Source: Amycolatopsis umgeniensis
GTDB taxonomy: Bacteria; Actinomycetota; Actinomycetes; Mycobacteriales; Pseudonocardiaceae
Assembly (NCBI RefSeq): GCF_014205155.1
Contig: NZ_JACHMX010000001.1
Coordinates: forward strand, 8,122,001-8,186,000
Direction: 5' to 3'
Length of the DNA: 64,000 nt
The notes under the pieces are model-generated. The model did not search any database, was not told the origin of the DNA, and saw only the letters and a list, made by a program, of their open reading frames with translations. Positions 21,435-55,759 of this stretch are shown piece after piece (positions within the stretch are counted from its first letter, which is position 1; every line of letters starts with the position of its first letter). The position numbers and the translations under genes were made by a program.

Positions 21435-21671
21435 CTAGGCCGCGTCTGAGCTGAGGACGGCCGCCAGGTCCGTCGGTGACGGGTATGCGAAGACGAGGGC
21501 GACCGAGACCTCGATCCCGAGAGCGTCCTGCAGGCCGGCGGTGATCTGGAAGGCGGCCAGTGAGTCCCCGTTGGCTTCGAAGAAGTCGCTTTCGGCGTCC
21601 AAGGTGTTGTCGCCCAAGGAATCGCGGTACAGCGAAACGATCAGCTCCGGCAGGTCCTGGGTCGTGGTCAT
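21435..21671 (-). CDS. Standalone peptidyl carrier protein
   Basis: 78 residues with FFEANGDSLAAF, where Ser37 is the phosphopantetheine attachment site, in a four-helix carrier fold of normal length. Its start overlaps the stop of the adenylation gene by 4 bp (ATGA), so the two are translationally coupled and probably work as a pair: the A protein loads an amino acid onto this carrier, for delivery to NRPS-1 or for modification while tethered (for example by the hydroxylase at 29477). Last gene of the leftward operon 30475-21435. Confidence 0.88.
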   Translation of the reverse strand: MTTTQDLPELIVSLYRDSLGDNTLDAESDFFEANGDSLAAFQITAGLQDALGIEVSVALVFAYPSPTDLAAVLSSDAA

Positions 21672-23161
21672 CGTGGTCCGTTCTCGTTTCGGGTCAGCAT
21701 GGTCCGGTCGGTCTTGCCGCTGTGGGTGGTGGGAAGGCTGGCGATGCGGGCGAAGCGGCGCGGCATCATGTACGGCGGCAGGGATTCGGCGAGGTGCGCG
21801 CGCAGCGCGGCGTCCGATACGTCGGCCAGTTCGCCCACGACATGGGCGGTGAGGCCGATCCGGCCGCGTTCGTCCTCGGCCGCGGTGAGGACGGCGCCGG
21901 TCACGGCGGGATGGGACAGCAGCGCGCCTTCGATCTCGGCCGGATCCACGCGGTAGCCGCGGATCTTGAGCTGACGATCGACTCTGCCCAAGTACACCAG
22001 GTTGCCGTCGGGGTGACGGCGCGCCAGGTCGCCGGTGCGGTACAGCCGCGCTCCCGGCGGGCCGAACGGGTCCGGGACGAACCGTTCGGCGGTCAGGCCG
22101 GGACGTCCGCCGTAGCCGCGTGCGACGCCGACGCCGCCGATGTGGACCTCACCGGTGGCCCCATCGGGTACGGGGCGGCGATCCGGGCCGAGCAGCCATA
22201 CCGAAACCCCGTCGATCGGCGCGCCGATCAGGTCGGCCGCCGTCACCGGCTCTTCGGGCACGGGGTACCGGGTCGAGGTCATGGTGCACTCGGTCGGTCC
22301 GTACTGGTTGACCAGTTCGCCCGGCAGCAGACGCCGTCCGCCGGAGACGAGGAACGGCAACAGCGATTCCCCGCTCGAGACGATCAGCTCGATCGACCGC
22401 AGCGCCGCCGTGGCGGCTTCGTGCCCGGTGAGGAAACCGAGGAACGACGGGGTGACGCTGAGCAGCGCGGTGACGCCGAAGTCGCGCACGGTGCCGGCGA
22501 ACTCGTCCGGACGCAGCAGTTTGGCGCGGGGCACGAGCACGACGCAGCCACCGGCGACGAGTGGCGCGAACGCGTCGCGGATCGACGCGTCGTAGCCGAT
22601 CGGGGCCACCTGAAGTGCGACTGTCCCCGGCCCGAGTCCGTTGTCCGCGGCGATCGCGCGCAGGTACGACCGCAGCCCGCCGTGTTCGATCAGGACGGCG
22701 TTCGGGGCGCCGGTCGACCCTGACGTATGGCTGACGTAGGCGAGCGCGCGTGGCGTGACCTCGGGCAAGCGTGCCACCGCACCGGTCTGCGCGGTCTGGT
22801 CGATCGGGATGACCGGACCCGTGATGGGCAGTGTGAGCCGCTTGGCGAGCCCCGTCGTCGTCAGCAGCATCCGCGCGCCGCCGGTGCGGCACATGGCGTC
22901 GAGGCGAGCGGGCGGCAGGTCGGCGTCGAGCGCGAGGAACGCGCCGCCCGCCCGTGCGACGGCGGCCATCGCGATCACGGCGTCCACGCCGCGTTCGACG
23001 GCGACGGCACAGACCTGCTCCGGCCCCAAGCCGTTGGCTGCCAGCACTCGGGCGAGCCGCTGGATCCGGTCGGTCAGCTCCCCGTAGCTCAGCGATTCGT
23101 CGAGGGTGCGGATCGCGACGGCTTCAGGGGGATGCGCGCAGACGTCGTCGACGAAGCTCAT
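21668..23161 (-). CDS. Standalone NRPS adenylation enzyme
   Basis: 497 residues, one complete A domain: A3 YVSHTSGSTGAPNAV, A5 NQYGPTE, A7 YRTGDLARRHPDG, A8 GRVDRQLKIRGYRVDP, and A10 SGKTDR with the catalytic Lys. Two departures stand out: the A3 loop has Asn where K-G normally follows Pro, and A4 reads YDASIRDA. The specificity residues read by eye are D-A-R-S-V-S-Q-M-T. The Asp at the first position implies an alpha-amino acid, but I know no match for the code. Start and stop overlap the neighbouring genes by 4 bp. Together with the PCP it supplies a fifth building block in addition to the four of the two modular NRPSs. Confidence 0.88.
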   Translation of the reverse strand: MSFVDDVCAHPPEAVAIRTLDESLSYGELTDRIQRLARVLAANGLGPEQVCAVAVERGVDAVIAMAAVARAGGAFLALDADLPPARLDAMCRTGGARMLLTTTGLAKRLTLPITGPVIPIDQTAQTGAVARLPEVTPRALAYVSHTSGSTGAPNAVLIEHGGLRSYLRAIAADNGLGPGTVALQVAPIGYDASIRDAFAPLVAGGCVVLVPRAKLLRPDEFAGTVRDFGVTALLSVTPSFLGFLTGHEAATAALRSIELIVSSGESLLPFLVSGGRRLLPGELVNQYGPTECTMTSTRYPVPEEPVTAADLIGAPIDGVSVWLLGPDRRPVPDGATGEVHIGGVGVARGYGGRPGLTAERFVPDPFGPPGARLYRTGDLARRHPDGNLVYLGRVDRQLKIRGYRVDPAEIEGALLSHPAVTGAVLTAAEDERGRIGLTAHVVGELADVSDAALRAHLAESLPPYMMPRRFARIASLPTTHSGKTDRTMLTRNENGPR

Positions 23162-26100
23162 GTCGCCTCACTGGCCAGCAGCCGTGCCACCTCGGCGTCG
23201 GAGAGCCCGGTGATCTCGTCTTCGACAGCCTGCGTCACCGCTTGTGCCAGCTCGGCGACCGTGGTGGCCTCGAACAGGCGACGCAAGGGGAGCTCCACGG
23301 CGAACGCCCGCCGCAGCTGGGCGAGTACCCGGGTGGCCAGCAGCGAATGCCCGCCCAACGCGAAGAAGTCGTCCGTCACGCCGACCCGGTCCACCCCGAG
23401 CACCTCGCGCCAGATGTCGGTGATGAGCTGCTCGGCCGGGTCGCGGGGCGCCTCGGCCGGTCCGATGTCGGACGCGGTCAGATCCGCCGAGGGCAAGGCC
23501 TTGCGGTCGACCTTTCCGCTCGTCGTCATCGGCAGGGCGGCGAGTTTCGCCCAGCGTGCCGGGACCATGTACTCGGGCAGCAGCGCCCGCAGGTGTTCGC
23601 GCAACGCGTCGGCGCCTGGCTCACCGACCACGTAGGCGGCCAGCAGCGGGTCGCCCGACGGGCCCGCCGTGGTGACCACCACGGCCGCGTCGACGTCCAC
23701 GTGCCGCAGGAGGGCCGCCTCGATTTCGCCGAGTTCGATGCGCAATCCGCGGATCTTGATCTGGTGGTCGATCCGCCCGAGGAACTCGATCGCCCCGTCC
23801 TGGCGATATCGGACCAGGTCTCCGGTGCGGTACAGCCGTGAACCAGGCGGGCCGAACGGATCGGGGACGAACCGCTCGGCGGTGAGCGCGGCGCGGTGGT
23901 GATACCCGCGGGCCAGGCGCACCCCGCCGAGGCACAGTTCGCCGGGCACGCCGGTCGGCACCGGGCGGAGATCGGCGTCCACGATGTAGGCGCGGGTGCC
24001 CGCCACCGGCCGTCCGATCGGCATCGCGGCGCCGCCCTGCTGCCCGTCGAGGTCACCGGCCACCGGGTACAGCAGCGAACAGATGGTCGCCTCGGTCGGC
24101 CCGTAGCTGCACAGGAACCGCCCAGGGTGGCCGGTCGCCGCCCACTGTCGCGCGTCGTCGACCGTGACCACGTCGGCGCCCACGTTCATCAACCGCAGTC
24201 CCGCCAGCAGATCCGGTCCGTAGCGCATCGCCTCGCGGTAGAACGCGGGCGCGGTGTCGATGATCGTCACCCCGTACTCGGCCAGCCGTGCCGGAAGCTC
24301 GGCCGGGGTCCAGGACTCCGGGTCGCTCACCACGATCGTCGCGCCGGTGAGCAGCGTGGCGCCGATCTGGTCCATGGCCACGTCGAAGGTCAGCGCGGAC
24401 AGCAGGACCACGCGGTCTTCGGAGCCGATGGTGTAGGCGTCCGCGATCACCCGGCAGTGGTGGGCGTACGACCGGTGCTCGATCATGACGCCCTTGGGCC
24501 GCCCGGTCGAACCGGAGGTGTAGATGAGGTACGCCAGAGCGCGCGGATCCGGCCGGGGTACCGGATTGTCTTCCTCGGCGGGCCAATCCGCCGAGTCGCC
24601 GTCGACGGTCACCACCTCGCGGTCACCGAACCGGCCCGCGAACTCGGGGGAGGTCACCACCATCCGGGCACCGGCGTCGGTGAGCATGAAGTCGAGCCGT
24701 TCGGCGGGATGCCGCGGGTCGAACGGGGCGTACACGCCACCGGACTTGAGTACGCCCAGCAGGACCACCACCGCGTCGAGCGAGCGCTCCAGGCACACTC
24801 CGACGACGGTCTCCGGCCCGGTCCCGCGTGCTCGCAGCAGCCGCGCGAACCGGTTGGCCCGTGCGTTCAGTTCGGCATAGGTCAGCTGTCGCTCGCCGGA
24901 GACCACGGCCACCGCGCCGGGCCGCAGCGCCGCCTGCCGCTCGACCAGTTCGGAAACGCCCATCCGGTGCTCGTCGACGGGATCCAGCGCCGCCAGCCGA
25001 CCTCGATCAGGGTCGGGCCAGTCGGTCAGCAGCCGCCGTCGCTCGTCTTCACCGAGTATGTCCAGCTCGGCCAGCCCGCGGTCCGGATCGGCGCCGATAC
25101 TCGCCAGCAGGCTCAGGTAATGCCCGGCCATTCGCTCGACGGTCGCCCGGTCGAACAGGCTGGTCGCGTACTCGAAGACGCACCGCAGCTCGCCGCCGTC
25201 CCGTTGCTGGACGGACACGACGAGGTCGAATTTGGCCACCGGGGCACCGGAGGCGATCCGCCCGACGGTGGTGCCGCACAGGGTGTCCGGGCGGTTCTCC
25301 AGGTGCTCCAGCTCGAACATGATCTGGAACAGCGGGTTGCGGGACAGATCCCGATCCGGCTGCAACGCGTCGACGAGGTGCTCGAACGGCACGTCCTGGT
25401 GGGCGAACGCGTCGGTGCAGTCGCGGCGCACCCGGTCGAGCAGTTCGATGAAGGTCGGCTCGCCGTCCAGATCGGCGCGCAGGACCAAGGTGTTGGTGAA
25501 GAGTCCCAGCAGTTCCTCGGTTTCCTGCCGGGTCCGGCCCGCCACCGGGGTGCCGACCGAGACGTCGGTGCGGCCGGTGTAGCGGCCGAGCAGCACCTGG
25601 AACGCGGCCAGCAGGGTCATGAACGGCGTGGCGCCCTGTCGGGTGGCGAGTTCGGTCACCGCCTTGGCCACCGGCACCGGGACGGTGACCGCCACCGTGT
25701 CCCCGCGCGGATCGCGCTGGGCCGGACGAGGCCGGTCGGTGGTCAGCTCGACCGGGGTGAGCCCGGCCAGCCGGTCGCGCCAGTACCGGAGCTGCCCCTC
25801 TCTGTCCTGAGTGGACTGTGCGGAGCGTTGCCAGGCGGCGAAGTCCGCGTACTGGATCGGCAGCGGGCCGTCGTGGGCGGCGTTCAGATCGCGGAACAGG
25901 ATGTCCATCGACCACGCGTCGAAGGCGATGTGGTGCAGGGTCAGCGCGACCAGATGCTCGTCCGCGTCCACCCGGATCACGGTGACCCGCAGCGGATGCT
26001 CGCGCCCGAGGTCGAACGGCCTGCCGGACACCTGGTCCATCAGCTCGTGAGCCTCCGTCGGCCTGCCGGTCAGGTCGACCAGGCGGAACGCCACCGGTCC

Positions 26101-29100
26101 CGGCGGATCGACGACCTGCACGGGCTCGCCGCCCTGATCGACGTAGCGGGTGCGCAGCACTTCGTGCCGTGCGGCGAGCCGATCCACCGCGCGCTGGAAC
26201 GCGTCGACGGAAAGCGGGCCGGAAAGCCGCAGTGCCAACGGGATGAGGTACTCGACGCTGCCCGGGTCGAGCTGGTCGAGGAACCACATCCGCTGCTGGG
26301 CGAACGACAGCGGCAGCCCACCGTCCCGGGCGACCGGCCGGATCGCGGCGACGGCGGCGCCGGTGGTGCCCGCGTCGAGCCGGGCGGCGAGACGCTCGAC
26401 GGTCCGGTCGTCGAACAGTTCGCCGACGGTCAGCTCGCCCCCGAACTCGCGCCGGAGCTTCAGCACGAGCCGGATGGCCAGCAGGGAGTGCCCGCCGAGG
26501 CCGAAGAAATCGGCGCGCACATCGACGTGGTCCACGCCGAGCATCTCGGCCATGGCGGCGGCGACGAACCGTTCGGTCGGGGTGCTCGGTGCCGTGTGAT
26601 CGTCCGATGTGGACTCTTCGCTCGACGGCGTGGGCAACGCGGCGCGGTCGAGTTTGCCGTTGGGGCCCAGCGGGAGCGCGTCGAGGAGGTGGATGGCCGG
26701 GGGGATCATGGGCGACGGCAGCCGGGTGGACAGGTGCTCGCTCAGCTCGGCCGGAGTGGTTCCGTTGGCGGACACGGCATAGGCGACGAGGGTGGTGTCC
26801 CCGGCCGGTGCCCGGTGGGGGACGACGGCGGCCGCCGTCACGTCCGGATGCGAGCACAGGGCGGCCTCGATCTCGGCGGGCTCGATCCGCACGCCGTTGA
26901 TCTTGACCTGGTGATCGACGCGGCCGGCGTACTCCAGCGTGCCGTCGTCCCGCCAGCGGGCCAGATCGCCGGTGCGGTACCAGCGTTCGCCGGGAATCGA
27001 GGGGTACGGATGCGGGGTGAACTGGCGGGCCGTCTGGTCCGGGCGGTCGGCGTAGCCACGGGCGAGACCGACGCCGCTGACGCACAGTTCACCCGGCACG
27101 CCGATCGGCACGAGCCTGTCCGCGGCGTCGACGACGAACACCCGCGTGTTGGACAGCGGCGTGCCGATGGGCACGGTGCCCGCCCGCTCGTCGCGGCGGT
27201 AGCGCCCCGCGGTCACGTCGATGGCGCACTCGGTGGGGCCGTAGGTGTTGTCGACCGCCACGTCGAGCAGCGCGGTCAGCCGTTGGCACAGCGAGACCGG
27301 CAGCGCCTCGCCCGCCGAGCAGACCAGGCGAAGCGAGGTGCACCCGGCGAACCCGGGTTCGTCGAGCAGCAGGCGCAGGACCGACGGCACGAGTTGCAGG
27401 ACCGTGGCGCCGTGCCGGGTGATCGACGCGGCCATCGCGGTGGGGTCGCGATGCGCGCCGGGCGGCGCCATGACCAGGGTGGCGCCCGCGACGAACGGGG
27501 CCAGCAGCTCCCACATCGAGGCGTCGAAGCCGATCGTGGTCTTCTGCAGGACCCGATCGGCGGCCGTGAGCTGGTGGCGAACCGACCACAAGACCCGGTT
27601 GCGGATGCCGCCGTGCGTGACGGCGACACCCTTGGGCGTTCCTGTCGAACCGGAGGTGTGCACGACGTAGGCGATCTGCGCGCCGTGGATGGCCGGATGT
27701 TCGGTGAGGGGGATGGTGTCCCGACGCTCGTCCAGATCGATCCGGGTGAGGGTTTCCGGCAGCCGGACGTCCACTCCCGCGTGGGACAGCACCAGCGTGA
27801 TGCCGGTGTCGGCGACGACGTGGCGCAGGCGTTCGGCCGGGTGGTCCGGCGGCAACGGCACGTAGGTGGCGCCGGCGGTGAGGATCGCCAGCAGCGCGAC
27901 GGCCAGATCGGTGCCGCGGTCCATGGCGACGCCGACGGGTGTCTCCGTGCCGACGCCTCGCTGACGTAGGTGGCCGGCGAGGGCCTCGACACGGGCGGCG
28001 AGTTCGCCGTAGCTCAGTTCGTCCACATCGGACAGTACGGCCACGGACCGTGGAGAGCGTGCTGCCTGTGCGAAGAACAGCTCAGGCAGGGACTGCCCGG
28101 TTTCCTCGGTGGTCGAGGTACCGAAGGAGCGAAGCCGGTCCTGTTCGGATTCGGCGGCCAGTTCGAGCGAATGGGCCGGATCCTCCGGCGCTGCGGCGAT
28201 CTCTTCGAGCAGCCGCACGTAGTTGGCCGCCATCCGCTCGATCCGGATCCGGTCGAACAGGCTGGTCGGGTAGATGAGCTGGCCGTGCACCGAGCCGTCG
28301 GCGAACTGCGCCAGGTGCAGCGACAGGTCGAAGGCCGAACTGGCCCACAGTGGCGGGCACAGCGTCACGTCGAGGCCGGGCAGCCGATAAGGTTGGCGGC
28401 GGGCGTCGTACCACGCGATACCGGCCTGGAACACCGGGTTCCGCGACGGATCCCGCTCCGGCTCCAGCTGGGCGATGACCTGGTCGAACGGCACGTCCTG
28501 ATGTGCGTACGCCTCGAGCGCCGTCTTCCTCGCCTGCCCTAGCAACTCCACAAAGGACGGTTCGCCGGACAGATCGCCCCGCAGCACCACCGTGTTGAGG
28601 AACATGCCGATCAGCGGCAGCTCGTCCGGACGCCTGGTGGAGACGGAGACGCCGACAGCGACGTCGTCCTGGCGCGAATAGCGAGCGAGCAGCAGCTGAT
28701 ACGCGGCCAGATACACCATGAACGGCGTCGCGCGGTGGGTCCGGCCCAGTTCGCGCAGCCTGTCGGCGAGATCCGGCGGTACGACGAGGTCGACGCAGTC
28801 GCCGTCGGCCACCCATTTCGACGGCCTGGCGCGATCGGTGGGCAGTTCGAGCGGAGTGATCCCGGCGAGCCGGTCCGCCCAATACGAGAGTCCGCCGGTG
28901 GTGGTCCCTTGTTCTCGACGGCGCAGGGCTTCGTGGTGCTGGAGAGCCGGTGCCGGCAGCGTCGCCGATCCGTAGAACACGTCGAGCTCCCTGGCGAGCA
29001 CACTCCAGGACAAGCCGTCGAAAGCGATGTGGTGGACGGCGATCAGCAGGACGGCCTCGTCGCCGGCCGATCGGACCAGTGTGAGCCGCCACGGAGGTTC

Positions 29101-29454
29101 CGTGCGCAGGTCGATCGGGGTGCGCAGATCGCGCAGCCGGAGTTCCCGCAGGCTCGTCTCGCGTTCCGACGGCGACAGTCCCGTGATGTCCACAATGGAC
29201 AGTTTGACGGGTGCCGGATCGGTGATGATCTGCACCGCCGCGCCGTCCACCGTGTCGAACCGGGACCGCAGAACCGCGTGCCGCGCCGAAATCTCCGTCA
29301 GTGCCGCTGTCAGCGCCCCGACGTCGAGGGCGCCTCGCAAGCGCAATGTCGCCGACAGCAGGTGCTCGATGGCCGCGTTCGAACGCAGCTCGTCGATGAA
29401 CCACAGCTGTTCCTGCGACGGCGACAGCGGGTGGACGTCACCGCTTTCCACCAT
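23158..29454 (-). CDS. Bimodular NRPS (C-A-T-C-A-T)
   Basis: 2098 residues; ATG at 29454 with AAAGG upstream. C1 (about 8-430) has HHIAFDG. A1 (about 465-950; HTSGSTGTPKG, YGPTE) has specificity residues D-A-W-Q-C-A-T-I-D by eye. T1 Ser is 990 (GGHSL). C2 (about 1050-1470) has HHIAFDA, Ala replacing the usual Gly. A2 (about 1490-1985) reads D-V-D-D-M-V-S-I-C. T2 Ser is 2037. There is no epimerase, methyltransferase or thioesterase domain, so the chain must pass on to NRPS-2. Because it opens with a C domain, an upstream donor is needed, most simply the standalone A/PCP pair. The A1 code shares 6 of 9 positions with the known Gln code DAWQFGLID, which is interesting because beta-ureidoalanine is isosteric with Gln. 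Product activated is unproven. Confidence 0.92.
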   Translation of the reverse strand: MVESGDVHPLSPSQEQLWFIDELRSNAAIEHLLSATLRLRGALDVGALTAALTEISARHAVLRSRFDTVDGAAVQIITDPAPVKLSIVDITGLSPSERETSLRELRLRDLRTPIDLRTEPPWRLTLVRSAGDEAVLLIAVHHIAFDGLSWSVLARELDVFYGSATLPAPALQHHEALRRREQGTTTGGLSYWADRLAGITPLELPTDRARPSKWVADGDCVDLVVPPDLADRLRELGRTHRATPFMVYLAAYQLLLARYSRQDDVAVGVSVSTRRPDELPLIGMFLNTVVLRGDLSGEPSFVELLGQARKTALEAYAHQDVPFDQVIAQLEPERDPSRNPVFQAGIAWYDARRQPYRLPGLDVTLCPPLWASSAFDLSLHLAQFADGSVHGQLIYPTSLFDRIRIERMAANYVRLLEEIAAAPEDPAHSLELAAESEQDRLRSFGTSTTEETGQSLPELFFAQAARSPRSVAVLSDVDELSYGELAARVEALAGHLRQRGVGTETPVGVAMDRGTDLAVALLAILTAGATYVPLPPDHPAERLRHVVADTGITLVLSHAGVDVRLPETLTRIDLDERRDTIPLTEHPAIHGAQIAYVVHTSGSTGTPKGVAVTHGGIRNRVLWSVRHQLTAADRVLQKTTIGFDASMWELLAPFVAGATLVMAPPGAHRDPTAMAASITRHGATVLQLVPSVLRLLLDEPGFAGCTSLRLVCSAGEALPVSLCQRLTALLDVAVDNTYGPTECAIDVTAGRYRRDERAGTVPIGTPLSNTRVFVVDAADRLVPIGVPGELCVSGVGLARGYADRPDQTARQFTPHPYPSIPGERWYRTGDLARWRDDGTLEYAGRVDHQVKINGVRIEPAEIEAALCSHPDVTAAAVVPHRAPAGDTTLVAYAVSANGTTPAELSEHLSTRLPSPMIPPAIHLLDALPLGPNGKLDRAALPTPSSEESTSDDHTAPSTPTERFVAAAMAEMLGVDHVDVRADFFGLGGHSLLAIRLVLKLRREFGGELTVGELFDDRTVERLAARLDAGTTGAAVAAIRPVARDGGLPLSFAQQRMWFLDQLDPGSVEYLIPLALRLSGPLSVDAFQRAVDRLAARHEVLRTRYVDQGGEPVQVVDPPGPVAFRLVDLTGRPTEAHELMDQVSGRPFDLGREHPLRVTVIRVDADEHLVALTLHHIAFDAWSMDILFRDLNAAHDGPLPIQYADFAAWQRSAQSTQDREGQLRYWRDRLAGLTPVELTTDRPRPAQRDPRGDTVAVTVPVPVAKAVTELATRQGATPFMTLLAAFQVLLGRYTGRTDVSVGTPVAGRTRQETEELLGLFTNTLVLRADLDGEPTFIELLDRVRRDCTDAFAHQDVPFEHLVDALQPDRDLSRNPLFQIMFELEHLENRPDTLCGTTVGRIASGAPVAKFDLVVSVQQRDGGELRCVFEYATSLFDRATVERMAGHYLSLLASIGADPDRGLAELDILGEDERRRLLTDWPDPDRGRLAALDPVDEHRMGVSELVERQAALRPGAVAVVSGERQLTYAELNARANRFARLLRARGTGPETVVGVCLERSLDAVVVLLGVLKSGGVYAPFDPRHPAERLDFMLTDAGARMVVTSPEFAGRFGDREVVTVDGDSADWPAEEDNPVPRPDPRALAYLIYTSGSTGRPKGVMIEHRSYAHHCRVIADAYTIGSEDRVVLLSALTFDVAMDQIGATLLTGATIVVSDPESWTPAELPARLAEYGVTIIDTAPAFYREAMRYGPDLLAGLRLMNVGADVVTVDDARQWAATGHPGRFLCSYGPTEATICSLLYPVAGDLDGQQGGAAMPIGRPVAGTRAYIVDADLRPVPTGVPGELCLGGVRLARGYHHRAALTAERFVPDPFGPPGSRLYRTGDLVRYRQDGAIEFLGRIDHQIKIRGLRIELGEIEAALLRHVDVDAAVVVTTAGPSGDPLLAAYVVGEPGADALREHLRALLPEYMVPARWAKLAALPMTTSGKVDRKALPSADLTASDIGPAEAPRDPAEQLITDIWREVLGVDRVGVTDDFFALGGHSLLATRVLAQLRRAFAVELPLRRLFEATTVAELAQAVTQAVEDEITGLSDAEVARLLASEAT

Positions 29455-29476
29455 GGCCAGCCTTTCGTGTCCGGTA

Positions 29477-30475
29477 CTACTGACCGTTTTCGCCGGTCGA
29501 CGGCTCGGCCATGGCCACGGCGATCTTCCTGGGACCGGTGAACGGTTCCCGGCCGTGAGAGGAAAGCATGTTGTCGACCATCAGCACGTCGCCGAGCTGC
29601 CAGTCGAAACGCCGGGACGCCGCGCGGTAGCGATCCCGCAGATGGGCGACGACCTCGTCGGGAATGGTGCCGCCGTCGCCGTAGTAGGTGTTGGTCGGCA
29701 GGTCTTCCTCGGAGAGCATCGCGCGCAGCCCCGCGCAGACGTCTTCGGCCAGCGTGGTCACGTGGAAGAACGTGAGGTGGTTGAACCACACGGCCTCGCC
29801 GGTGACGGGGTGGTTGTGCACGGCCCGGCGTCGGGCTGTGGTGCGCAGCCCGTTCCCGTCGAGCCATTCGGTCTCGACACCGTTGCGCGCGCAGTAGACC
29901 GTGACCTCGTCGCGATCAGTGGTGTTGAACGTGTGCTGCCACGGGAGTCCGAACGAGTCGGTGAAGTTGCGTACGACCATCCAGCCCCTGGCCTCGAACT
30001 CCGCCCGCACCTCGGGATCGATCGACGCGAGGATCCGCCGGGTGTCGGCGAGCGGCGTGGCACCGAGGGTGGTGGGCGGCTGGACGCAGTAGAAGAACAG
30101 GCTCAGCGGCCAGGCGGCCTGATACGAGTTCTCGTTGTGCAGGAAGATCTCCTCGGCCTCCGGATAGTCGGTCGAGGTGTACACCTGCCCCTTGATCGTG
30201 CTGCGGGGCGAGGACCGCTCGTGGTAGGTCAGCGGCGTGCCCGCCAACGTGCGGACGCAGGCGTCGAAGCCGTCCACGTCGTCGATGTCGAACCCGCGCA
30301 GCAGCACGGCGCCGTGCTCGAGCAGCCGTTCTCGGATCAGGGGGCGGCTTGCCGCGAGGGAGGCGGTGTCTTTCGCCTCGGCCTGGCCGGGAGTCACCAC
30401 GTAGGGCAAGGCCCGCTCCTGGCCGGAAGACTCGTTTGTCGCGGAGATGGACGGTCCAGCGGTCATGTCCGCCAT
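29477..30475 (-). CDS. TauD/TfdA-family Fe(II)/2-oxoglutarate oxygenase, SyrP-like hydroxylase
   Basis: 332 residues from the ATG at 30475 (GGGGAA upstream). The facial triad is visible as H113-N-E115 (FLHNENSYQAAWP) and H307 (MLSSHGRE); R316 in GPRKI is the likely 2-oxoglutarate contact. The motif HNENSYQ and the region VQPPTTLGATPLADTRRIL are typical of the SyrP subgroup, whose characterised members beta-hydroxylate Asp, Asn or Glu residues, usually while attached to a carrier protein. First gene of the leftward NRPS operon (22 bp before NRPS-1). A beta-hydroxylated residue at the end of the peptide would suit ring formation by the Cys thioesterase of NRPS-2; that link is inference. Confidence 0.85.
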   Translation of the reverse strand: MADMTAGPSISATNESSGQERALPYVVTPGQAEAKDTASLAASRPLIRERLLEHGAVLLRGFDIDDVDGFDACVRTLAGTPLTYHERSSPRSTIKGQVYTSTDYPEAEEIFLHNENSYQAAWPLSLFFYCVQPPTTLGATPLADTRRILASIDPEVRAEFEARGWMVVRNFTDSFGLPWQHTFNTTDRDEVTVYCARNGVETEWLDGNGLRTTARRRAVHNHPVTGEAVWFNHLTFFHVTTLAEDVCAGLRAMLSEEDLPTNTYYGDGGTIPDEVVAHLRDRYRAASRRFDWQLGDVLMVDNMLSSHGREPFTGPRKIAVAMAEPSTGENGQ

Positions 30476-30859: not shown

Positions 30860-30873
30860 GCCGGCCGAGACCG

Positions 30874-31881: not shown

Positions 31882-31906
31882 GGGAAGCGCCTGGGCCGTC
31901 GCGAGG

Positions 31907-31980: not shown

Positions 31981-32054
31981 TCAATCACGCGTGATGCGGG
32001 TCTGATCACGCGAGTGCGGTGCAGCGTCACCCGGCCGACCCGCCCTCCGCGGTG

Positions 32055-43708: not shown

Positions 43709-44668
43709 ATGACCGGCCCGGCGCGCCGCCACCTGATTTCCCTCGATGACCTCGATGACGCCGACCTGCATTGGATCGTCGGACGCGGAATCGAGCACAC
43801 GCTCGGCCGCCGAACAGACGAGCGGCCGTTGCGAGATTTGGTTGCCGGTATTTTGTTCCGCAAAACCTCGACCAGAACGCGGACCTCGTTCTCCGCCGGG
43901 GCACTCCGGCTCGGCGCCCGGCTGATCACCTACGGTCCCGGCGACCTCCAGGAGAACACCGGCGAGACCATTGAGGACACCGCGGCCGTGCTGTCGGGGA
44001 TGCTCGACGTGCTCGTGGTGCGGACGGCCGGCGGCGAGGCCGAGCTCCGCGCCTACGCCGTGAACCGGCGGATGGCCGTGATCAACGCGATGTGCGCCGA
44101 GGAACACCCCACCCAGGCGCTCGCCGACCTCACCACGCTCACACAGCGGTTCGGCCGGATCGACGGGTTGCGCGTGCTCTACGTCGGTGAAGGCAACAAC
44201 ACCGCGTCGGCGTTGGCCCTGGCGCTGTCCCGGTACCCCGACACGGAGCTGTACCTGCGCACGCCGCCGGACTACGGCCTTGACCAACGGTTCCTCGACC
44301 GGGCGGCGCTCAACGCCAAGCGCAGCGGTGCGCTGGTGGAGGAGCGCCACGACATGGACGACCTGCCGCCCGTCGACGTGGTCTATACCACACGGTGGCA
44401 GACCACGGGAACGGTCAAACACACCGAAGACTGGCGAGAGGTGTTCGCCCCGTTCCAGGTCGACACCGCGGTGATGGCCGAGACCGGCGCCAAGGTGTTC
44501 CTGCACGACCTGCCCGCGCACCGCGGCGAGGAGGTCACGGCGGAGGTGCTCGATGGACCGTCGAGCCTCGCGTTCCAGCTGGCCGAGAACAAATACCACA
44601 GTGCCCGTGCCGTACTCGAATGGTGCGCGGGCGCCGAAACCCGGGGAGATCCGGTGAGCCATGGCTGA
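43709..44668 (+). CDS. Carbamoyltransferase of the OTCase family with altered acceptor motifs
   Basis: 319 residues with GGAGG before the ATG. Carbamoyl-phosphate motifs are intact: STRTR (54-58) and HPTQ (133-136). Both ornithine-binding signatures differ: the usual D-x3-SMG reads TTRWQTTG (227-234) and HCLP reads HDLP (266-269). It is therefore unlikely to be housekeeping OTCase. With the SbnA/SbnB diaminopropionate enzymes in the same cluster, the attractive acceptor is the beta-amino group of diaminopropionate, giving beta-ureidoalanine as in zwittermicin and the ureido group of viomycin-type peptides. First gene of a five-gene operon; its stop overlaps the next start by 8 bp. Confidence 0.85.
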   Translation: MTGPARRHLISLDDLDDADLHWIVGRGIEHTLGRRTDERPLRDLVAGILFRKTSTRTRTSFSAGALRLGARLITYGPGDLQENTGETIEDTAAVLSGMLDVLVVRTAGGEAELRAYAVNRRMAVINAMCAEEHPTQALADLTTLTQRFGRIDGLRVLYVGEGNNTASALALALSRYPDTELYLRTPPDYGLDQRFLDRAALNAKRSGALVEERHDMDDLPPVDVVYTTRWQTTGTVKHTEDWREVFAPFQVDTAVMAETGAKVFLHDLPAHRGEEVTAEVLDGPSSLAFQLAENKYHSARAVLEWCAGAETRGDPVSHG

Positions 44669-46955
44669 CGAAGTCCTGCTGTCGGAAGGCGAATGGCGGC
44701 TGTGGAACGAGTTCGCCTTGCGCGGCCCCGGATTTCCCGCCGCCGGAGTGCTGAGGCTGGCACCGCTCGGACTCGCCGAGGCGGCTGACGGGGTCGACGG
44801 GCTCACCGGTCCCGAGTGGCTCGCGTTCGAGGAGCGGTTCGCCGACGCGATGGTGAACAACGTCAAGGAACTGCAGGAGATCGCCGCGTTGCCCGCCTTC
44901 CGGGCCGCGGTGGCGTGGCAGAACCCGGCCCTGGTGCAGCGGGGGATCGGCTTGTTCCTGGCGTGGGATCCCTCGGCGGAAGGGCGCACCAGCAAACGGC
45001 GTGAACGTGAAGAGCTCGTCGCGCACTACTGGCAACGGTTCTGCGTGAAGAACGACACCATCGGCTTCTTCGGCCCGGTGGGCTGGGGCCGGTGGGACGA
45101 GTCGGTCGAGGGTGTCACCGTCGAGCCTGGTTCCGGTCTGGTCGCCGAGTCGAACATCTATTTCTCGAGCTGGGCCGTCGACGCGGTCGCCCGCACGATC
45201 GGCGTGGATCCCCGGCTGCGGGCCTGGATCGCGCCGCGCCGGGTGTCCTTCGTCCGGGTCACCGGAGACCTGGCGGGGATGCCCGGACGCCTACCCCAGC
45301 GGCTCGAGCCACTCGAACGGGAGATTCTCGTGCGCTGCGACGGTATCCGCCGTCCGGCGGAGCTGGCGGCGGCTCTCGGCGGCGAGGTGGCCGAAGACGC
45401 CGTCGTGTCCATCTTGGACGAACTGGTGCGGCGACGGCTGATCGTGTGGCGGCTGGAGGTGCCGACCTGCGCTCATCCCGAGCAGTACCTGCGAACCGTG
45501 CTCGACCGGGTTGCGGACCCCGAGCTGCGGCGGGACGCGTTGTCCAAAGTGGAGGTGCTCGAGCGCGGCCGCGACCGGATCCAGGCGGCCGGTGTCGACG
45601 CCGACGCCCTGTCCGCGGCGTTCACCCAGCTGGAAAGCGAGTTCGAGACGCTGACCCAGGTCGCGGCGCAACGTGCCAAGGGCAAGCGGACCGCGCCGTG
45701 CCGGGCGCTGATCTACGCCGACTGCCGCCGGTCCGCCACGGTCCGGATCGGCGCCGCGATCCGCGACGAGCTGACCCCGCTGGGCCTGTGCCTCACTTCC
45801 GCCCGCTGGCTGACGGGCCGGTTCGCGGAGGTCGTCGGACGACGTGTCCGGCAGGCTTACGAGCGTCTGCGTGACCGGGACGGGAGCGCGGACCTCGCGT
45901 CGCTGTGGATGGAGTGCCTACCCGCCCCGCACGGCGAGTCGATCGCCGACATCGACCGGATCCAGGCCGAGCTACGGGAACGCTGGGCCCGGATCCTGGA
46001 CGTCCCCGAAGGAGCCCGCCGCGTGCGACTGTCCAGTGTGGACATCGCGGACCGGGTGCGGGAGGAGTTCGCGGAGACCGGCCCGAGCTGGCCGCAGGCC
46101 CGGTACGTCAGCCCGGACGTGATGGTCGTCGCGGACGACGCGGCCGAGGTGGCACGCGGGAACTTCGAGCTGGTCCTCGGCGAACTGCACGTCGCGATGA
46201 ACACGGCGAGCACGTCGCTGTGGGTGATGCAGCATCCGGACGCCGGACGGCTGCTCGCCGAGACCTCGACGGACTTCCCCGGACCGCGCCTGCTGCCGAT
46301 GCTGCCCAAGGAACAGCCGCCGCGATGGTCGGCGCGCAGCCGGATCTCGTTGGACCGGCCGGAGGACTACTACGTGGCCTTGGTGGACCACACTGTCGAC
46401 CCGGAGCGGGAGCGGACGGTGCTGAGCGCCGACGTCCTGGTCGAAGAACGGGGTGACGGGCTGGTGGCCGTGTTGCCCGACGGCGCGGAGTTCGACGTGC
46501 TCGACGTGTTCAGCAACGCGATGACCAACCGGGTCATGGACCGGTTCGCCCTGCGTCCGGTCGCCGACCATTCGCCGCGGGTGACGGTGGATCGGTTGGT
46601 GGTGGCGCGGGAGTCGTGGTCGATTCCGGTGGGGGATTTGGGTTTTGTGTCGGAGAAGTCGGAGGCGCGGCGGTTTGTGTCGGGTCGTCGGTGGCGTGAT
46701 TCGTTGGGTTTGCCGCGTTTTGTGTTTGTGGTGTCGCCGGGGGAGCCTCGTCCGTTCTATGTGGACTTTGATGCTCCGGTGTATGTGAATATTTTCGCGA
46801 AGGCGGTGCGGCGGTTGGCGCGTCAGGATCCGGGTGGTCGTGTGGTGATCACGGAGATGTTGCCGTCGCCGGAGCAGGTGTGGCTGACCGACGACGTGGG
46901 TAATCGCTACACGTCGGAACTACGTTTCGTCGCGGTCGACCAGTCCGTCCGATGA
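44661..46955 (+). CDS. Lantibiotic-dehydratase (LanB) family protein 1
   Basis: 764 residues. It matches the N-terminal, glutamyl-transferring part of LanB dehydratases (Lant_dehydr_N type): YWQRFCVKNDTIGFFGP (about 118-134), VRLSSVDIADRV, FPGPRLLPMLPKE, SLDRPEDYYVALVDH, RPFYVDFDAPVYVNIF and a C-terminal ITEMLPSPEQVWL. The separate elimination domain (SpaB_C type) is absent. Known LanB proteins use aminoacyl-tRNA to modify ribosomal peptides, and no precursor peptide gene is visible here. In this operon it may act on the nonribosomal peptide or its building block: dehydration of the predicted Thr, or tRNA-dependent amide formation. Residues about 636-737 are encoded by a 305-bp stretch identical to that in the second copy. 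Confidence 0.82.
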   Translation: MADEVLLSEGEWRLWNEFALRGPGFPAAGVLRLAPLGLAEAADGVDGLTGPEWLAFEERFADAMVNNVKELQEIAALPAFRAAVAWQNPALVQRGIGLFLAWDPSAEGRTSKRREREELVAHYWQRFCVKNDTIGFFGPVGWGRWDESVEGVTVEPGSGLVAESNIYFSSWAVDAVARTIGVDPRLRAWIAPRRVSFVRVTGDLAGMPGRLPQRLEPLEREILVRCDGIRRPAELAAALGGEVAEDAVVSILDELVRRRLIVWRLEVPTCAHPEQYLRTVLDRVADPELRRDALSKVEVLERGRDRIQAAGVDADALSAAFTQLESEFETLTQVAAQRAKGKRTAPCRALIYADCRRSATVRIGAAIRDELTPLGLCLTSARWLTGRFAEVVGRRVRQAYERLRDRDGSADLASLWMECLPAPHGESIADIDRIQAELRERWARILDVPEGARRVRLSSVDIADRVREEFAETGPSWPQARYVSPDVMVVADDAAEVARGNFELVLGELHVAMNTASTSLWVMQHPDAGRLLAETSTDFPGPRLLPMLPKEQPPRWSARSRISLDRPEDYYVALVDHTVDPERERTVLSADVLVEERGDGLVAVLPDGAEFDVLDVFSNAMTNRVMDRFALRPVADHSPRVTVDRLVVARESWSIPVGDLGFVSEKSEARRFVSGRRWRDSLGLPRFVFVVSPGEPRPFYVDFDAPVYVNIFAKAVRRLARQDPGGRVVITEMLPSPEQVWLTDDVGNRYTSELRFVAVDQSVR
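46566..46870 (+). repeat. 305-bp direct repeat, copy 1 (inside LanB-like gene 1)
   Basis: Identical by eye to 49738-50042, offset 3172 bp. Codon use differs sharply from the rest of both genes: TTT, TAT, AAT, ATT, GGT, CGT and TTG are used freely, where flanks use G/C-ending codons. This suggests a foreign segment spread by recent gene conversion. Confidence 0.85.
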
Positions 46956-47881
46956 TCGTCAGGGCGCCCCGGCTCGGCGCGGCCGACGTGCTGGCGGCGG
47001 CGCGGCGGACCGCCGGCCGGATCCGGCGCACACCGCTGCTTTCACTGGAAGGCCTGCCGCGGATCCTGCTCAAGGCCGAGCATCTGCAGCACGGCGGCTC
47101 GTTCAAGACACGCGGCGCGGCGAACGCGATGCTCGACCTGTCCGCCGCCCACGTGGTGGCAGGCTCGTCGGGCAACCACGGGATCGCGGTCGCGCGGCTC
47201 GGCGCGGAACTGGGCGTGGGGGTGACGATCGTCGTCGCGGGTGGTGCGCGGGCCGACAAGGCCGCCGCCATCGAGAGGCTCGGCGCCCAGGTGGTCGAGG
47301 TGCCCGGTGGGGTGGCCCAACGGGACCAGTACGCGCGCGACCTCGCCCTCCGCACCGGCGCGGTGTTCGTCCCCTCCTCGGACCACCGGCTGGTGGTCGC
47401 CGGCGCGGGTACCGCGGGGCTGGAGGTCTTCGACGCGATACCGGATCTCGACGCGATCTTCGTGCCGACCGGTGGCGGCGGCCTGCTGGCGGGCGTGTGT
47501 CTGGCCGCCGAGGGAATGCTCAGGGCACCACGGATCATCGGCGTCGAACCGGTGGCGGCACGGCGTTACGCCCTCTCGCTGGCGGCCGGATGCCCTGTCG
47601 AGGTGCCCCCTTCCGACACGGTGGCCGACGGGCTGCGTGGCCAGCGTCCGGGCGCCATCCCGTTCCCGATCATCCAGCGCCGGGTCGACGAGATGATCGA
47701 GGTCACCGACGAGGCGATCCTGGCGGCGACGGAACTGTTGCACCGCAACGGCATCGAGGCGGAACCGAGCGGAAGCGTCGCGCTCGCCGGAGCCTTGCGG
47801 ACCCGGTTCGCCGGCCGGGCCGTCGCCATCGTGTCCGGCGGGAACACACCCCGGCGCTTCCGCGTCGCCGATCCCCGATAG
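46952..47881 (+). CDS. Threonine/serine dehydratase-like PLP enzyme (fold type II)
   Basis: 309 residues; ATG overlaps the LanB-1 stop (ATGA). Schiff-base Lys in HGGSFKTRGA (K52), phosphate loop GSSGNHGIAVA, and the PTGGGGLLAG loop; ends with IVSGGN, as in serine/threonine dehydratases and serine racemases. No ACT domain, so it is the short, unregulated type. Being between the two LanB-like genes, it may produce a keto/dehydro building block or D-Ser/D-Thr rather than serve isoleucine biosynthesis. Distinct from the SbnA-like enzyme at 30874. Confidence 0.83.
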   Translation: MIVRAPRLGAADVLAAARRTAGRIRRTPLLSLEGLPRILLKAEHLQHGGSFKTRGAANAMLDLSAAHVVAGSSGNHGIAVARLGAELGVGVTIVVAGGARADKAAAIERLGAQVVEVPGGVAQRDQYARDLALRTGAVFVPSSDHRLVVAGAGTAGLEVFDAIPDLDAIFVPTGGGGLLAGVCLAAEGMLRAPRIIGVEPVAARRYALSLAAGCPVEVPPSDTVADGLRGQRPGAIPFPIIQRRVDEMIEVTDEAILAATELLHRNGIEAEPSGSVALAGALRTRFAGRAVAIVSGGNTPRRFRVADPR

Positions 47882-47901
47882 CCGCGAGGAGCGTTACCGA
47901 C

Positions 47902-50121
47902 ATGTTGTGGTTGAGCGAAAAGTGGCGGCTCTGGGACCAGTTCGCGGTCCGTGGCGCCGGTTTCCCCGCGTCGGGCGTGCTGCGCTTGGCGCCGGAAGGA
48001 CTGGCCGCGGCCGCGGACCAGTTCGACGGGGAGGTGTTCGACAAGCAGTTCGACGCCTCGGCCGTGGAAACAGCCGTCGAACTCCAGGCGATCGCCTCCA
48101 CACCGGGGTTTCGGGCCGCCGTCGAGTGGCAGAACTCCACGATCTGGCGGACCGGTGTCGAGTCCTTCCTGGCGTGGGAGCCGTCGGTGGCCGGCCGGAC
48201 GAGCAAACCGCGGCAGCGCGAGGAGCTGGTGGCGCAGTACTGGCAACGGTTCTGCGTGAAGAACGACACGATCGGCTTCTTCGGCCCGGTGGGGTGGGGG
48301 CGGTGGGACGAGTCGGTCACCGGCGTCCGGGTGGAGCCCGGCTCCGGGCTGGTCATGGCTTCGAACGTCTACTTCGCCAGCTGGGCCGTCGACGCGGTGG
48401 CCCGCACGATCAGCGCCGATCCGCGATCGCGGAACTGGGTGGCGCCGCGCCGGGTGCCGTTCGTGCGGATCTCCGACGGATTCGCGCATCTCCCCAGCCG
48501 AGCGCCGCAAGAGATCCCGCCGGCCCTCCTCCGGGTGCTCGGACAGTGCGACGGAGTCCGCACGGCGCAGGCGATCCAGGAGGACTTGGGCCCCGGCATC
48601 GACGTGGCCGCCGCGTTGACGGACCTGGTGCTGCGCCGATGGATCGTCTGGCGGCTGGACATCCCGGCGAGCGCGCATCCCGAGCGGCGGCTTCGGGGAT
48701 GGCTGGAGTCCGTCGGTGACACCGAGTTCCGGGAGCATTGGCTAGCCAGGCTGGACGAGCTGGAACGCGGTCGCGATCGTGTCAGCGTGGCGACGCCGGT
48801 GGGGCTGCCGGACGAACTGAGCGCGTTGGAGACCGAGTTCACGACCTTGACGGGAACGGCGGCCACCCGCGCCAAAGGCACGAACACCGCCCCCTGCCGC
48901 GGGCTGGTCTACTCCGATTCCGTCCGCGCGGCGCGGGCCCGGCTCGGCACCGACGTACTGGCCGAGCTCACCCCGCTCGACCTCCTGCTGACCAGCGCGA
49001 CCTGGCTGACCTCCAGGCTCGCCGACGCGGTGCTGGGTCACGCCCGGCGGGTCCACGCCGACCTCGCGGCCGCCGGACCGGTCGACCTCGCCGCGTTCTG
49101 GTTCGCGTGCATGCCGATCCTGCACGGCTCGGCGGTGGCCGACGCCGCGGCGCTCCGCCAGGAGCTGTCCGCCCGATGGGCGCGAATCCTCGAAGTCCCC
49201 GAAGGAGCCCGCCGCGTGCGACTGTCCAGTGTGGACATCGCGGACCGGGTGCGGGACGAATTCGGCGAGCCGTCCCCCGGCTGGGGCATGGCCCGCTACC
49301 TCAGCCCGGACGTGTTCGTCATCCCGGGCGACGACGGCGGGCTGGTGCTCGGCGAACTGCACATCGCGTCGAACACGCTCGGCGCCTCGCTGTTCGTCAA
49401 CCAGCATCCGGCGCGCGGCGAACTGCTCGCCGAGACCGCGGCCGACTTCCCGGGCCCGCGCCTCCTGCCGATGCTGCCCAAGGAGCACCGATCCCGCCTG
49501 TCCGCCCGGATCCGCTATTCCCTCGACCGGCCGGAGGACTACTACGTGGCCTTGGTGGACCACACGGTCGACCCGAAACGGGGGCGGACCGCGCTGAGCG
49601 CCGACGTCCGGGTGGAGGCGCGCGGTGACCGGCTGGTGGCCGCGCTTCCCGACGGCGCGGAGTTCGACGTGCTCGACGTGTTCGGTCACGTGCTGACCAC
49701 GTTGGCGATGGACCTCTTCCGGATCATGCCGGACGCGGACCATTCGCCGCGGGTGACGGTGGATCGGTTGGTGGTGGCGCGGGAGTCGTGGTCGATTCCG
49801 GTGGGGGATTTGGGTTTTGTGTCGGAGAAGTCGGAGGCGCGGCGGTTTGTGTCGGGTCGTCGGTGGCGTGATTCGTTGGGTTTGCCGCGTTTTGTGTTTG
49901 TGGTGTCGCCGGGGGAGCCTCGTCCGTTCTATGTGGACTTTGATGCTCCGGTGTATGTGAATATTTTCGCGAAGGCGGTGCGGCGGTTGGCGCGTCAGGA
50001 TCCGGGTGGTCGTGTGGTGATCACGGAGATGTTGCCGTCGCCAGAGCAAGCGTGGTTGACCGACGATGCCGGGAATCGTTACACCTCCGAACTGCGCTTC
50101 GTCGCCGTGCACGGCGGATAG
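47902..50121 (+). CDS. Lantibiotic-dehydratase (LanB) family protein 2
   Basis: 739 residues, 20 bp after the dehydratase-like gene, with GAGGA upstream. Same architecture as LanB-1: YWQRFCVKNDTIGFFGP, VRLSSVDIADRV, FPGPRLLPMLPKE, SLDRPEDYYVALVDH and the same C-terminal block. It is a tandem paralogue rather than the missing elimination half. Divergent and near-identical blocks alternate between the two genes (62 bp identical at 46002-46063/49195-49256; 305 bp at 46566/49738), pointing to gene conversion. The pair may form a heterodimer or use different aminoacyl-tRNAs. Function on an NRPS-derived substrate is inference. Confidence 0.82.
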   Translation: MLWLSEKWRLWDQFAVRGAGFPASGVLRLAPEGLAAAADQFDGEVFDKQFDASAVETAVELQAIASTPGFRAAVEWQNSTIWRTGVESFLAWEPSVAGRTSKPRQREELVAQYWQRFCVKNDTIGFFGPVGWGRWDESVTGVRVEPGSGLVMASNVYFASWAVDAVARTISADPRSRNWVAPRRVPFVRISDGFAHLPSRAPQEIPPALLRVLGQCDGVRTAQAIQEDLGPGIDVAAALTDLVLRRWIVWRLDIPASAHPERRLRGWLESVGDTEFREHWLARLDELERGRDRVSVATPVGLPDELSALETEFTTLTGTAATRAKGTNTAPCRGLVYSDSVRAARARLGTDVLAELTPLDLLLTSATWLTSRLADAVLGHARRVHADLAAAGPVDLAAFWFACMPILHGSAVADAAALRQELSARWARILEVPEGARRVRLSSVDIADRVRDEFGEPSPGWGMARYLSPDVFVIPGDDGGLVLGELHIASNTLGASLFVNQHPARGELLAETAADFPGPRLLPMLPKEHRSRLSARIRYSLDRPEDYYVALVDHTVDPKRGRTALSADVRVEARGDRLVAALPDGAEFDVLDVFGHVLTTLAMDLFRIMPDADHSPRVTVDRLVVARESWSIPVGDLGFVSEKSEARRFVSGRRWRDSLGLPRFVFVVSPGEPRPFYVDFDAPVYVNIFAKAVRRLARQDPGGRVVITEMLPSPEQAWLTDDAGNRYTSELRFVAVHGG
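49738..50042 (+). repeat. 305-bp direct repeat, copy 2 (inside LanB-like gene 2)
   Basis: Second copy of the element at 46566-46870, in the same reading frame and at the equivalent protein position. Identity ends abruptly at both sides: ATGCCGGACGCG before, and AGAGCAAGCG versus GGAGCAGGTG after. Confidence 0.85.
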
Positions 50122-50181
50122 CCGGTTTGTCTGCGCGTTCTTCCCTGCGAAAGGCGAGCGCCGTCCGTCAGGCTGGGTGGC

Positions 50182-51180
50182 ATGCTGATCCTGTCCCATG
50201 GTGACGTTCGGCGGGTCCTCGACGGTGCGGAGCACGATGTGCTGGCCGCGGTGCGGGCCGCGTACGTCCTGCACGCCCAAGGCCGGACGGCCGTGCCACA
50301 TTCGGTTTTCCTGCGATTCCCCGGCGATGAACGCAATCGGATCATCGCGCTGCCCGCCTATCTCGACAGCCCCGAGGCGGCGGTCGCCGGGGTGAAGTGG
50401 GTGTCGTCCTTCCCCGGCAACGTGAACTCCGCGCTGGACCGGGCGTCGGCGGCGATCATCCTCAACTCGATGCGCACCGGCCACCCCGAGGTGCTCATCG
50501 AAGGAGCGACCATCTCGGCGCGGCGCACCGCGGCGAGCGCCGCTGTCGCCGCCGCGACCCTCGGCACCACCGGCTCCGGGGTGACGCTCGTCGGAAGCGG
50601 CGTGATCAACTTCGAGGTCCTGGCATTCCTCCGGGCCGTGGACGCCGGGCTGGACTCGGTCACCGTATTCGACCTCGACCAGGATCGGGCCGGTGCCTTC
50701 GCGAGCCGGTGCGCCGCGCGGTGGCCGGACATGAAGGTCGACGTCGCCGCGAGGATCGAGGACGCCCTCGCCGCACATCCGCTGGTGAGCCTGGCGACCA
50801 GCGCCACCGTCCCGCATATGGACGGGTCGCACTGTCAGCCGGGAGCGTTGATCCTGCACCTGTCCCTGCGCGACCTCACGCCGGAGACCATCCTCGACGG
50901 CGTCAACATCGTCGACGACGCCGACCACGTCTGCCGGGCCGCGACGTCACCGCATCTCGCGGAGCAGCAGGTCGGCCATCGCGACTTCATCTCGAGCTCG
51001 CTCGGCGAGCTCTTGCTCGCCGGTGGGCGGCACGAGCGGAGCGCGGACGCTCTCACCATCTTTTCGCCCTTCGGCCTCGGTGCGCTGGACCTCGCCGTCG
51101 CGGACCTCGTGCACCGGCGCGCCCTTGAGCTCGGCCTCGGTACCCGCATTCCGGGGTTCCTCGGCAACGTGTCGGCCTGA
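50182..51180 (+). CDS. sbnB: SbnB-like dehydrogenase (2,3-diaminopropionate biosynthesis; ornithine cyclodeaminase family)
   Basis: 332 residues. Ornithine cyclodeaminase/mu-crystallin fold: GVKWVSSFPGN, LIEGATISARRTAASAAVAA, the Rossmann loop LVGSGVINFEVL, and LATSATVPHMDG. The wording VKWVSSFPGN and FSPFGLGALDLAVA fits SbnB rather than true ornithine cyclodeaminase. SbnB oxidises the SbnA product to 2,3-diaminopropionate and 2-oxoglutarate using NAD+. It closes the rightward operon; an exceptionally strong hairpin starts 8 bp after its stop, which I take as the right end of the cluster. Confidence 0.85.
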   Translation: MLILSHGDVRRVLDGAEHDVLAAVRAAYVLHAQGRTAVPHSVFLRFPGDERNRIIALPAYLDSPEAAVAGVKWVSSFPGNVNSALDRASAAIILNSMRTGHPEVLIEGATISARRTAASAAVAAATLGTTGSGVTLVGSGVINFEVLAFLRAVDAGLDSVTVFDLDQDRAGAFASRCAARWPDMKVDVAARIEDALAAHPLVSLATSATVPHMDGSHCQPGALILHLSLRDLTPETILDGVNIVDDADHVCRAATSPHLAEQQVGHRDFISSSLGELLLAGGRHERSADALTIFSPFGLGALDLAVADLVHRRALELGLGTRIPGFLGNVSA

Positions 51181-55749: not shown

Positions 55750-55759
55750 GGAGAGCGTC

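Follow-up and report, generated by a model that had tools for sequence, protein, structure and literature searches.

The region analysed is a 64,000-nucleotide stretch of Amycolatopsis umgeniensis DNA (NCBI RefSeq GCF_014205155.1, contig NZ_JACHMX010000001.1, positions 8,122,001 to 8,186,000; hereafter the window), part of a 9.23 Mb genome assembled as one contig. Within it lie genes for nonribosomal peptide synthetases (NRPS), for formation of 2,3-diaminopropionate (Dap), for a carbamoyltransferase resembling ornithine transcarbamoylase (OTCase) and for two LanB-like proteins, LanB1 and LanB2 (Table 1). All genes listed in the first-pass annotation, a model's reading of the letters and open reading frames, were recovered by profile searches against Pfam and NCBIfam; an MbtH-like gene, an amidase and two LuxR-type regulators had not been named. 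With moderate confidence, the sequence is read as one NRPS cluster for a peptide of about five residues, in which a constant, tRNA-assisted starter would be built on a carrier protein and followed by a variable peptide tail.

The minus-strand left arm carries the oxygenase, NRPS1, a stand-alone adenylation (A) domain and a free peptidyl carrier protein (PCP). The middle holds the MbtH-like and SbnA genes on the plus strand, the exporter, NRPS2 with the amidase, and two minus-strand regulators. The right plus-strand operon comprises the carbamoyltransferase, LanB1, a pyridoxal phosphate (PLP) enzyme of the PALP family, LanB2 and SbnB; the Dap genes are thus split, SbnA lying in the left part and SbnB in the right operon. 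Tight overlaps within the arms had been claimed and were found at six junctions, of -4 bases at PCP/A, A/NRPS1, NRPS2/amidase, regulator/regulator and LanB1/PLP enzyme, and of -8 bases at OTCase/LanB1. Within the right operon, gaps of 20 and 60 bases separate PLP enzyme from LanB2 and LanB2 from SbnB. The hairpins reported at 21134 and 51188 also held up: both have inverted-repeat arms, and stretches containing most of each beat 200 of 200 shuffles in folding (z -4.6 left, -7.0 right). A scan for terminators with T-runs picked up neither boundary hairpin.

Table 1. Features of the cluster, in window coordinates (C, condensation; T, thiolation; TE, thioesterase)
Feature	Position	Strand	Profile match or remark
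Hairpin, left-arm boundary	21134-21157/21165-21188		24-nt arms, 96% complementary
Free-standing PCP	21435..21671	-	PF00550 2.7e-12
Stand-alone A domain, code DARSVSQMT	21668..23161	-	PF00501 1.7e-63
NRPS1, C-A-T-C-A-T, codes DAWQCATID then DVDDNGSIC	23158..29454	-	
TauD/clavaminate-synthase-like oxygenase	29477..30475	-	PF02668 2.5e-43
MbtH-like protein	30644..30859	+	PF03621 5.1e-23
SbnA-type PALP, first step to Dap	30874..31881	+	TIGR03945 401.2 bits
Major facilitator superfamily (MFS) exporter	32055..33299	-	PF07690/PF05977
NRPS2, C-A(Thr code)-T-C*-A(Asn code)-T-TE(Cys)	33479..40747	+	
C*, modifying (CmodAA-type) C domain in NRPS2	about 36830-38110		
Amidase	40744..42255	+	PF01425 1.5e-91
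Two LuxR-type regulators	42248-42835, 42832-43452	-	PF00196 1.7e-16 and 7.6e-13
OTCase-like carbamoyltransferase	43709..44668	+	TRWQTTG + HDLP
LanB1, PEARL-type LanB-like	44661..46955	+	PF04738 only
PLP enzyme, serine racemase/threonine dehydratase family (PALP)	46952..47881	+	PF00291 3.7e-70
LanB2, PEARL-type LanB-like	47902..50121	+	PF04738 only, 1.6e-35
SbnB-type enzyme, second step to Dap	50182..51180	+	TIGR03944 383.3 bits
Hairpin, right-arm boundary	51184-51213/51221-51250		30-nt arms, 97% complementary

Both Dap enzymes passed the curated NCBIfam cut-offs (349.95 bits for the SbnA type, 326.9 bits for the SbnB type). The carbamoyltransferase contains TRWQTTG and HDLP. According to the review PMC4581275, the Dap carbamoyltransferases of the viomycin and zwittermicin pathways are marked by (T/S)RWQTTG in the 240s loop together with HDLP, ornithine enzymes have DxxxSMG and, mostly, a Cys in HxLP, and the boundary to the diaminobutyrate (Dab) enzyme (TRWQSMG) is less clear. 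Among the orthologues, window counted in, TRWQTTG was present in 12/13 and HDLP in 13/13. As the OTCase-like enzyme has both Dap-carbamoyltransferase motifs, there is good support for Dap and beta-ureidoalanine as precursors, and the diaminopropionate/ureidoalanine chemistry proposed at first pass is upheld at this level.

The assembly line has four NRPS modules, two each in NRPS1 and NRPS2, besides the stand-alone A domain and free PCP. The four C-domain motifs read AVHHIAFDG, TLHHIAFDA, SVHHIASDG and IECHAVLDG, and the active site of the NRPS2 thioesterase reads GWCGGG (a Cys thioesterase). The second C domain of NRPS2, C*, has McyA (8jbr, 1.2e-59) and AmbE (7r9x, 1.2e-39) as nearest solved structures. 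It carries KTVLFAAH and ECHAVLDG and was assigned by motifs to the CmodAA type, for which PMC11342130 gives [K/R]SVLLAAH and for which the DG of HHxxxDG was also required. FclJ and Zmn17 are reported to have Cys in place of the first His and conjugate side chains (PMC11342130); C* likewise has Cys at this position. With AmbE, McyA, FclJ (fabclavine) and Zmn17 (zeamine), C* has in common the K..VL..AH motif and a Ser or Thr donor, and the A domain upstream of the modifying C domain was of Thr or Ser type in all eight readable sequences.

Codes for Thr, Asn and Ser were tentatively assigned from code tables. The first NRPS1 module (DAWQCATID) is read as accepting beta-ureidoalanine because this residue is glutamine-shaped, with one chain NH, and DAWQ resembles the glutamine code; for the second (DVDDNGSIC), whose pocket is acidic, we infer Dap. 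Five relatives (L004, L006, L061, L054 and L015) run the DAWQ, acidic, Ser and last modules in one line, which supports the order NRPS1 then NRPS2.

The folds of LanB1 and LanB2 match TbtB, MibB and NisB, i.e. the LanB glutamylation fold, and the elimination domain PF14028 was matched nowhere in the genome with controls working. This combination, the glutamylation fold lacking PF14028, characterizes the peptide aminoacyl-tRNA ligases (PEARLs), as does a residue set of D/E, ExH, ExR and an N-terminal Arg, for which published residue lists and tandem LanBs presumed to be PEARLs served as reference. The ATP-site set in LanB1 is R21, D486, E508, H510, E753 and R755, with the same columns in LanB2. 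In a wide alignment D486, H510 and R755 were kept in 20/20 here versus 0/12 canonical LanBs; both groups share the Y-x-x-R motif in the helix at the tRNA site. By the tests available LanB1 and LanB2 are PEARL-type proteins, and ATP-dependent amide ligation with aminoacyl-tRNA is predicted for them. On the same tests, identity as class I lantibiotic dehydratases was rejected, PF14028 being neither fused nor split off in the genome and the residue set being that of PEARLs.

It had been remarked at first pass that LanB-like enzymes normally act on ribosomal peptides, yet no precursor gene is visible. That the LanB genes imply a missing precursor was not supported: both window LanBs carry the PEARL residue set, precursor-less PEARL-type LanBs have been published from NRPS clusters, and about two thousand NRPS/polyketide synthase (PKS) clusters contain PEARL-type LanB genes (PMC11212132). 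No window reading frame ends in a PLALA-like tail; the search was limited to such tails, and the NRPS-linked SnaE is without such a peptide. In one genome each of Saccharothrix (L155) and Salinispora (L156), several small LanB genes showing the PEARL pattern stand in tandem; these arrays are presumed to be pearlin clusters, and a simple tail search found no precursor there.

For comparative analysis, a LanB alignment scan of named genomes yielded 127 relatives, the best 80 of which were kept, giving 65 distinct loci whose gene order was read by tblastn of the window proteins. A repeating order of LanB1, stand-alone A, PLP enzyme, PCP and LanB2 was seen in Streptomyces, Salinispora, Saccharothrix, Actinokineospora, Crossiella, Kutzneria and others. 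Both LanB types were present in 47/65 loci, and in 44 of the 47 the A, PLP and PCP genes lay between them in this order, the three exceptions being Amycolatopsis loci. In the window and in three Amycolatopsis relatives, the LanB operon does not include the A and PCP genes; those of the window come last in the NRPS1 operon. The remaining 18 loci include 15 with <3.7 kb on the partner's side; the other three (L053, L055 and L059) have 10 kb covered and retain LanB2 with PCP, and L055 and L059 also A, with changed codes DGRSLSHIT and DARSLAHIT. In these three no match to LanB1 or the PLP enzyme was seen within 10 kb (tblastn). The A code read DARS[VAC]SQMT in 52/55 sequences within length and identity limits, and the window's PLP enzyme has serine racemase (5cvc) as nearest solved structure. 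The five-gene cassette recurs across actinobacteria, where it is likely to produce a common first building block.

LanB genes are also found joined to NRPS domains. Single C-A-T-LanB proteins of ~1,900 residues occur in two same-genus genomes (L128:4634-10381 and L130:2231-7942), the one aligned (L128) having the PEARL residue set, and in one public protein a LanB is fused to an A domain. Of 80 genus genomes, own included, 18 had some LanB1 match and 8 the LanB pair. The locus is not unique to this genome: where covered, Amycolatopsis coloradensis, A. azurea and A. decaplanina match it at 80-93% identity. In a midpoint-rooted tree, 58 LanB1 and 56 LanB2 sequences fell into two clades (support 0.84 and 1.0), so the duplication looks old, with the paralogues kept apart since. 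The 3' parts of the two window genes (46557-46856 and 49729-50028) are 99% identical across 300 nt, with 100% identity in 60-nt segments starting from 46571 to 46811; the other repeated blocks are at 74-79%, and this looks like recent gene conversion between the paralogues.

Overlapping stretches were joined into 12 public-genome cluster regions, and the window was added to make 13. Nine of these contain the carbamoyltransferase, eight with readable core modules and the ninth (L018) with only one further module. Every member of this first family with readable modules (8/8) had a DAWQ-type code alongside an acidic-pocket code of the form DVDD or D[VL]DE, a module of Ser or Thr type (although Kutzneria's DVFSVAMVH is ambiguous), a C domain with Cys at the first His and a K..L...H motif, and a Cys thioesterase. 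Neither DAWQ-type nor acidic-pocket codes occurred in the four regions of the second family, which have no carbamoyltransferase; three have DADNIGAVT and DAEEVG-type codes, the fourth (Streptomyces griseofuscus) covers two modules only, and all four have a Ser thioesterase and a Cys-variant C domain. The link between carbamoyltransferase and the two codes (8/8 versus 0/4) gave a one-sided Fisher value of 0.002, kinship not corrected for, and SbnA, SbnB and the oxygenase were seen in none of the four carbamoyltransferase-negative regions. Because the two families differ in tail yet keep the cassette, the shared starter is suggested to be the part of the products that matters for function. In S. 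griseofuscus (L040, L069 and L070) the cassette adjoins genes for a phosphopantetheinyl transferase, a UbiA-type prenyltransferase, an AMP-ligase and an amine oxidase, and the NRPS modules lie at greater distance.

In the proposed biosynthesis the stand-alone A domain would charge the free PCP with a constant amino acid (X), and the PLP enzyme would supply or alter an amino acid. A free carboxylate of the unit would then be extended by one or two residues, which the two PEARL-type enzymes would draw from aminoacyl-tRNA with consumption of ATP. As NRPS1 opens with a C domain, it depends on a donor from outside, and the finished starter would be handed to this domain. NRPS1 would then add beta-ureidoalanine (Gln-like code) and Dap (acidic pocket), and NRPS2 would add Thr, which the modifying C domain would dehydrate or conjugate, then Asn, before release by the Cys-type thioesterase. 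By our guess the oxygenase (nearest solved structures 1y0z and 9yut, clavaminate-synthase-like and TauD-like proteins) hydroxylates one residue, the MFS protein exports the product and the amidase trims or matures it. The least-shown step is PEARL action on a PCP-bound unit, favoured by the fusions, the gene order and the loci keeping LanB2, A and PCP. Tentatively, the PCP might take the place of the ribosomal carrier peptide: an acidic residue would be tethered to it by the alpha-carboxyl, and the two PEARLs would extend the side-chain carboxylate from tRNA. If true, an NRPS product would take up amino acids activated as for the ribosome, in the form of a branched or isopeptide starter common to many actinobacterial peptides.

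Several points weigh against this proposal. PEARL type was judged from published residue lists and from tandem LanBs presumed to be PEARLs, and in a smaller alignment one of four canonical LanBs (L097) shares the D and E508, though not H510/R755. In the LanB tree, labels follow the best match to either window protein. For Dap and ureidoalanine the code assignments are our own reading, and we know of no code matching DARSVSQMT of the stand-alone A domain (substrate X). The K..L...H motif of modifying C domains, constant in the first family, was found in 0/4 of the second. Among carbamoyltransferase-positive clusters SbnA was present in 8/9, SbnB in 6/9 and the oxygenase in 7/9, Kutzneria shows neither SbnA nor SbnB within 55 kb, and none of the four core modules was seen in L018. 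Seven of the nine carry one extra A domain near the four core modules, of DPLQLGL type in six and of Asn type in Crossiella, so that the number of residues varies within the family; none was seen near those of the window. PEARL action on a PCP-bound unit is read from gene order, fusions and co-conservation only, and the enzymes may act off line after the manner of SnaE, where chain reversal exposes a peptide carboxylate.

Such off-line action is the strongest competitor, and we hold it to be rather unlikely: the LanB pair would extend a carboxylate of the late or already released peptide, and the A domain, PCP and PLP enzyme would do no more than provide an ordinary starter residue. The sole worked-out NRPS-linked PEARL found extends a free peptide carboxylate, on or off line (PMC11212132), and a hydrolysing thioesterase would leave such a carboxylate. 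The ureido-forming signature EHHxxHDG, however, is in 0/4 window C domains, hence no chain reversal is at hand to account for a free carboxylate; L055 and L059 lack LanB1 and the PLP enzyme yet keep LanB2 beside A and PCP, and elsewhere a LanB follows a C-A-T module in one protein or is joined to an A domain.

An improbable course is glutamylation by LanB1 and LanB2: with Glu-tRNA they would modify the hydroxyl group of Ser or Thr carried on the PCP, and the PLP enzyme would replace the elimination domain to give a dehydroamino acid or its keto form. The LanB-like fold, the Y-x-x-R motif shared with canonical LanBs, the beta-elimination performed by the PLP enzyme's family and the missing PF14028 all fit, but D486, H510 and R755 separate these proteins from canonical LanBs, their counterparts serve carboxylate phosphorylation in PEARLs, and a modifying C domain for Thr is already present. 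Chance adjoining of an NRPS cluster and an unrelated LanB/carbamoyltransferase operon is scarcely credible: divergent and convergent genes and regulators do separate the arms, but NRPS modules lie near the cassette in 13/13 regions (L018 with one module, S. griseofuscus with two), the Dap enzymes SbnA and SbnB, which belong to one pathway, sit in different window arms, and 8/80 genus genomes hold the LanB pair. The recurring co-location in relatives contradicts the refuting condition set at first pass, an unrelated LanB/OTCase arm, and the first-pass view of a single biosynthetic cluster is upheld.

Among known systems, the sna cluster of Stackebrandtia nassauensis (threopeptin, SnaE) is, like the one in the window, an NRPS cluster with a LanB-like protein and an MbtH-like protein and with no precursor peptide seen; PEARL-type amide formation is predicted for the window as well. 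The sna cluster differs in having A-T-C-A-T plus PKS, a ureido-forming C domain and one LanB, an architecture not found in the window, which has two LanB paralogues, a stand-alone A domain, PCP and PLP enzyme and no ureido C-domain motif. The pearlin PEARLs (TglB, AmmB and BhaB) have the same residue set by published lists and no elimination domain; they extend a ribosomal carrier peptide, whereas the search for PLALA-like tails found none in the window and a PCP stands in that place. Precursor supply for viomycin and zwittermicin is alike in the (T/S)RWQTTG and HDLP carbamoyltransferase motifs and in Dap as precursor, but the NRPS is different. We know of no LanB pair in those clusters. Titles and abstract openings yielded no described pathway with this gene set, in line with the first-pass remark, although this is weak evidence. 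PEARL-type LanB proteins in NRPS clusters are already known (SnaE, threopeptin), with one worked-out case found; the comparative recurrence of a five-gene cassette with two kinds of NRPS is new. With a dedicated A domain, PCP and PLP enzyme, and with two PEARL-type paralogues that have stayed distinct in many genera, the conserved cassette offers a small defined protein set to probe PEARLs on an assembly line.

Nested inverted repeats holding copies of a GTAACTCGCGTGATCAGAGAC-type unit were noted at 31898-32039, where the SbnA and exporter genes converge, and the stretch 31885-31995 folds better than every shuffle (z -3.8). On the right flank (51365-59671) lie genes for an nSTAND1-WD40 protein (52081-55749), a WD40 protein (55709-56776) and a NACHT protein (56804-59671), which against PADLOC profiles gave repeat-type matches only plus one weak mad8 match. 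On the left flank (12222-16041) a 'GT4-conflict' glycosyltransferase (PF20706, 3.4e-110) adjoins an NB-ARC/TPR protein, a pair that is possibly a conflict or defence system.

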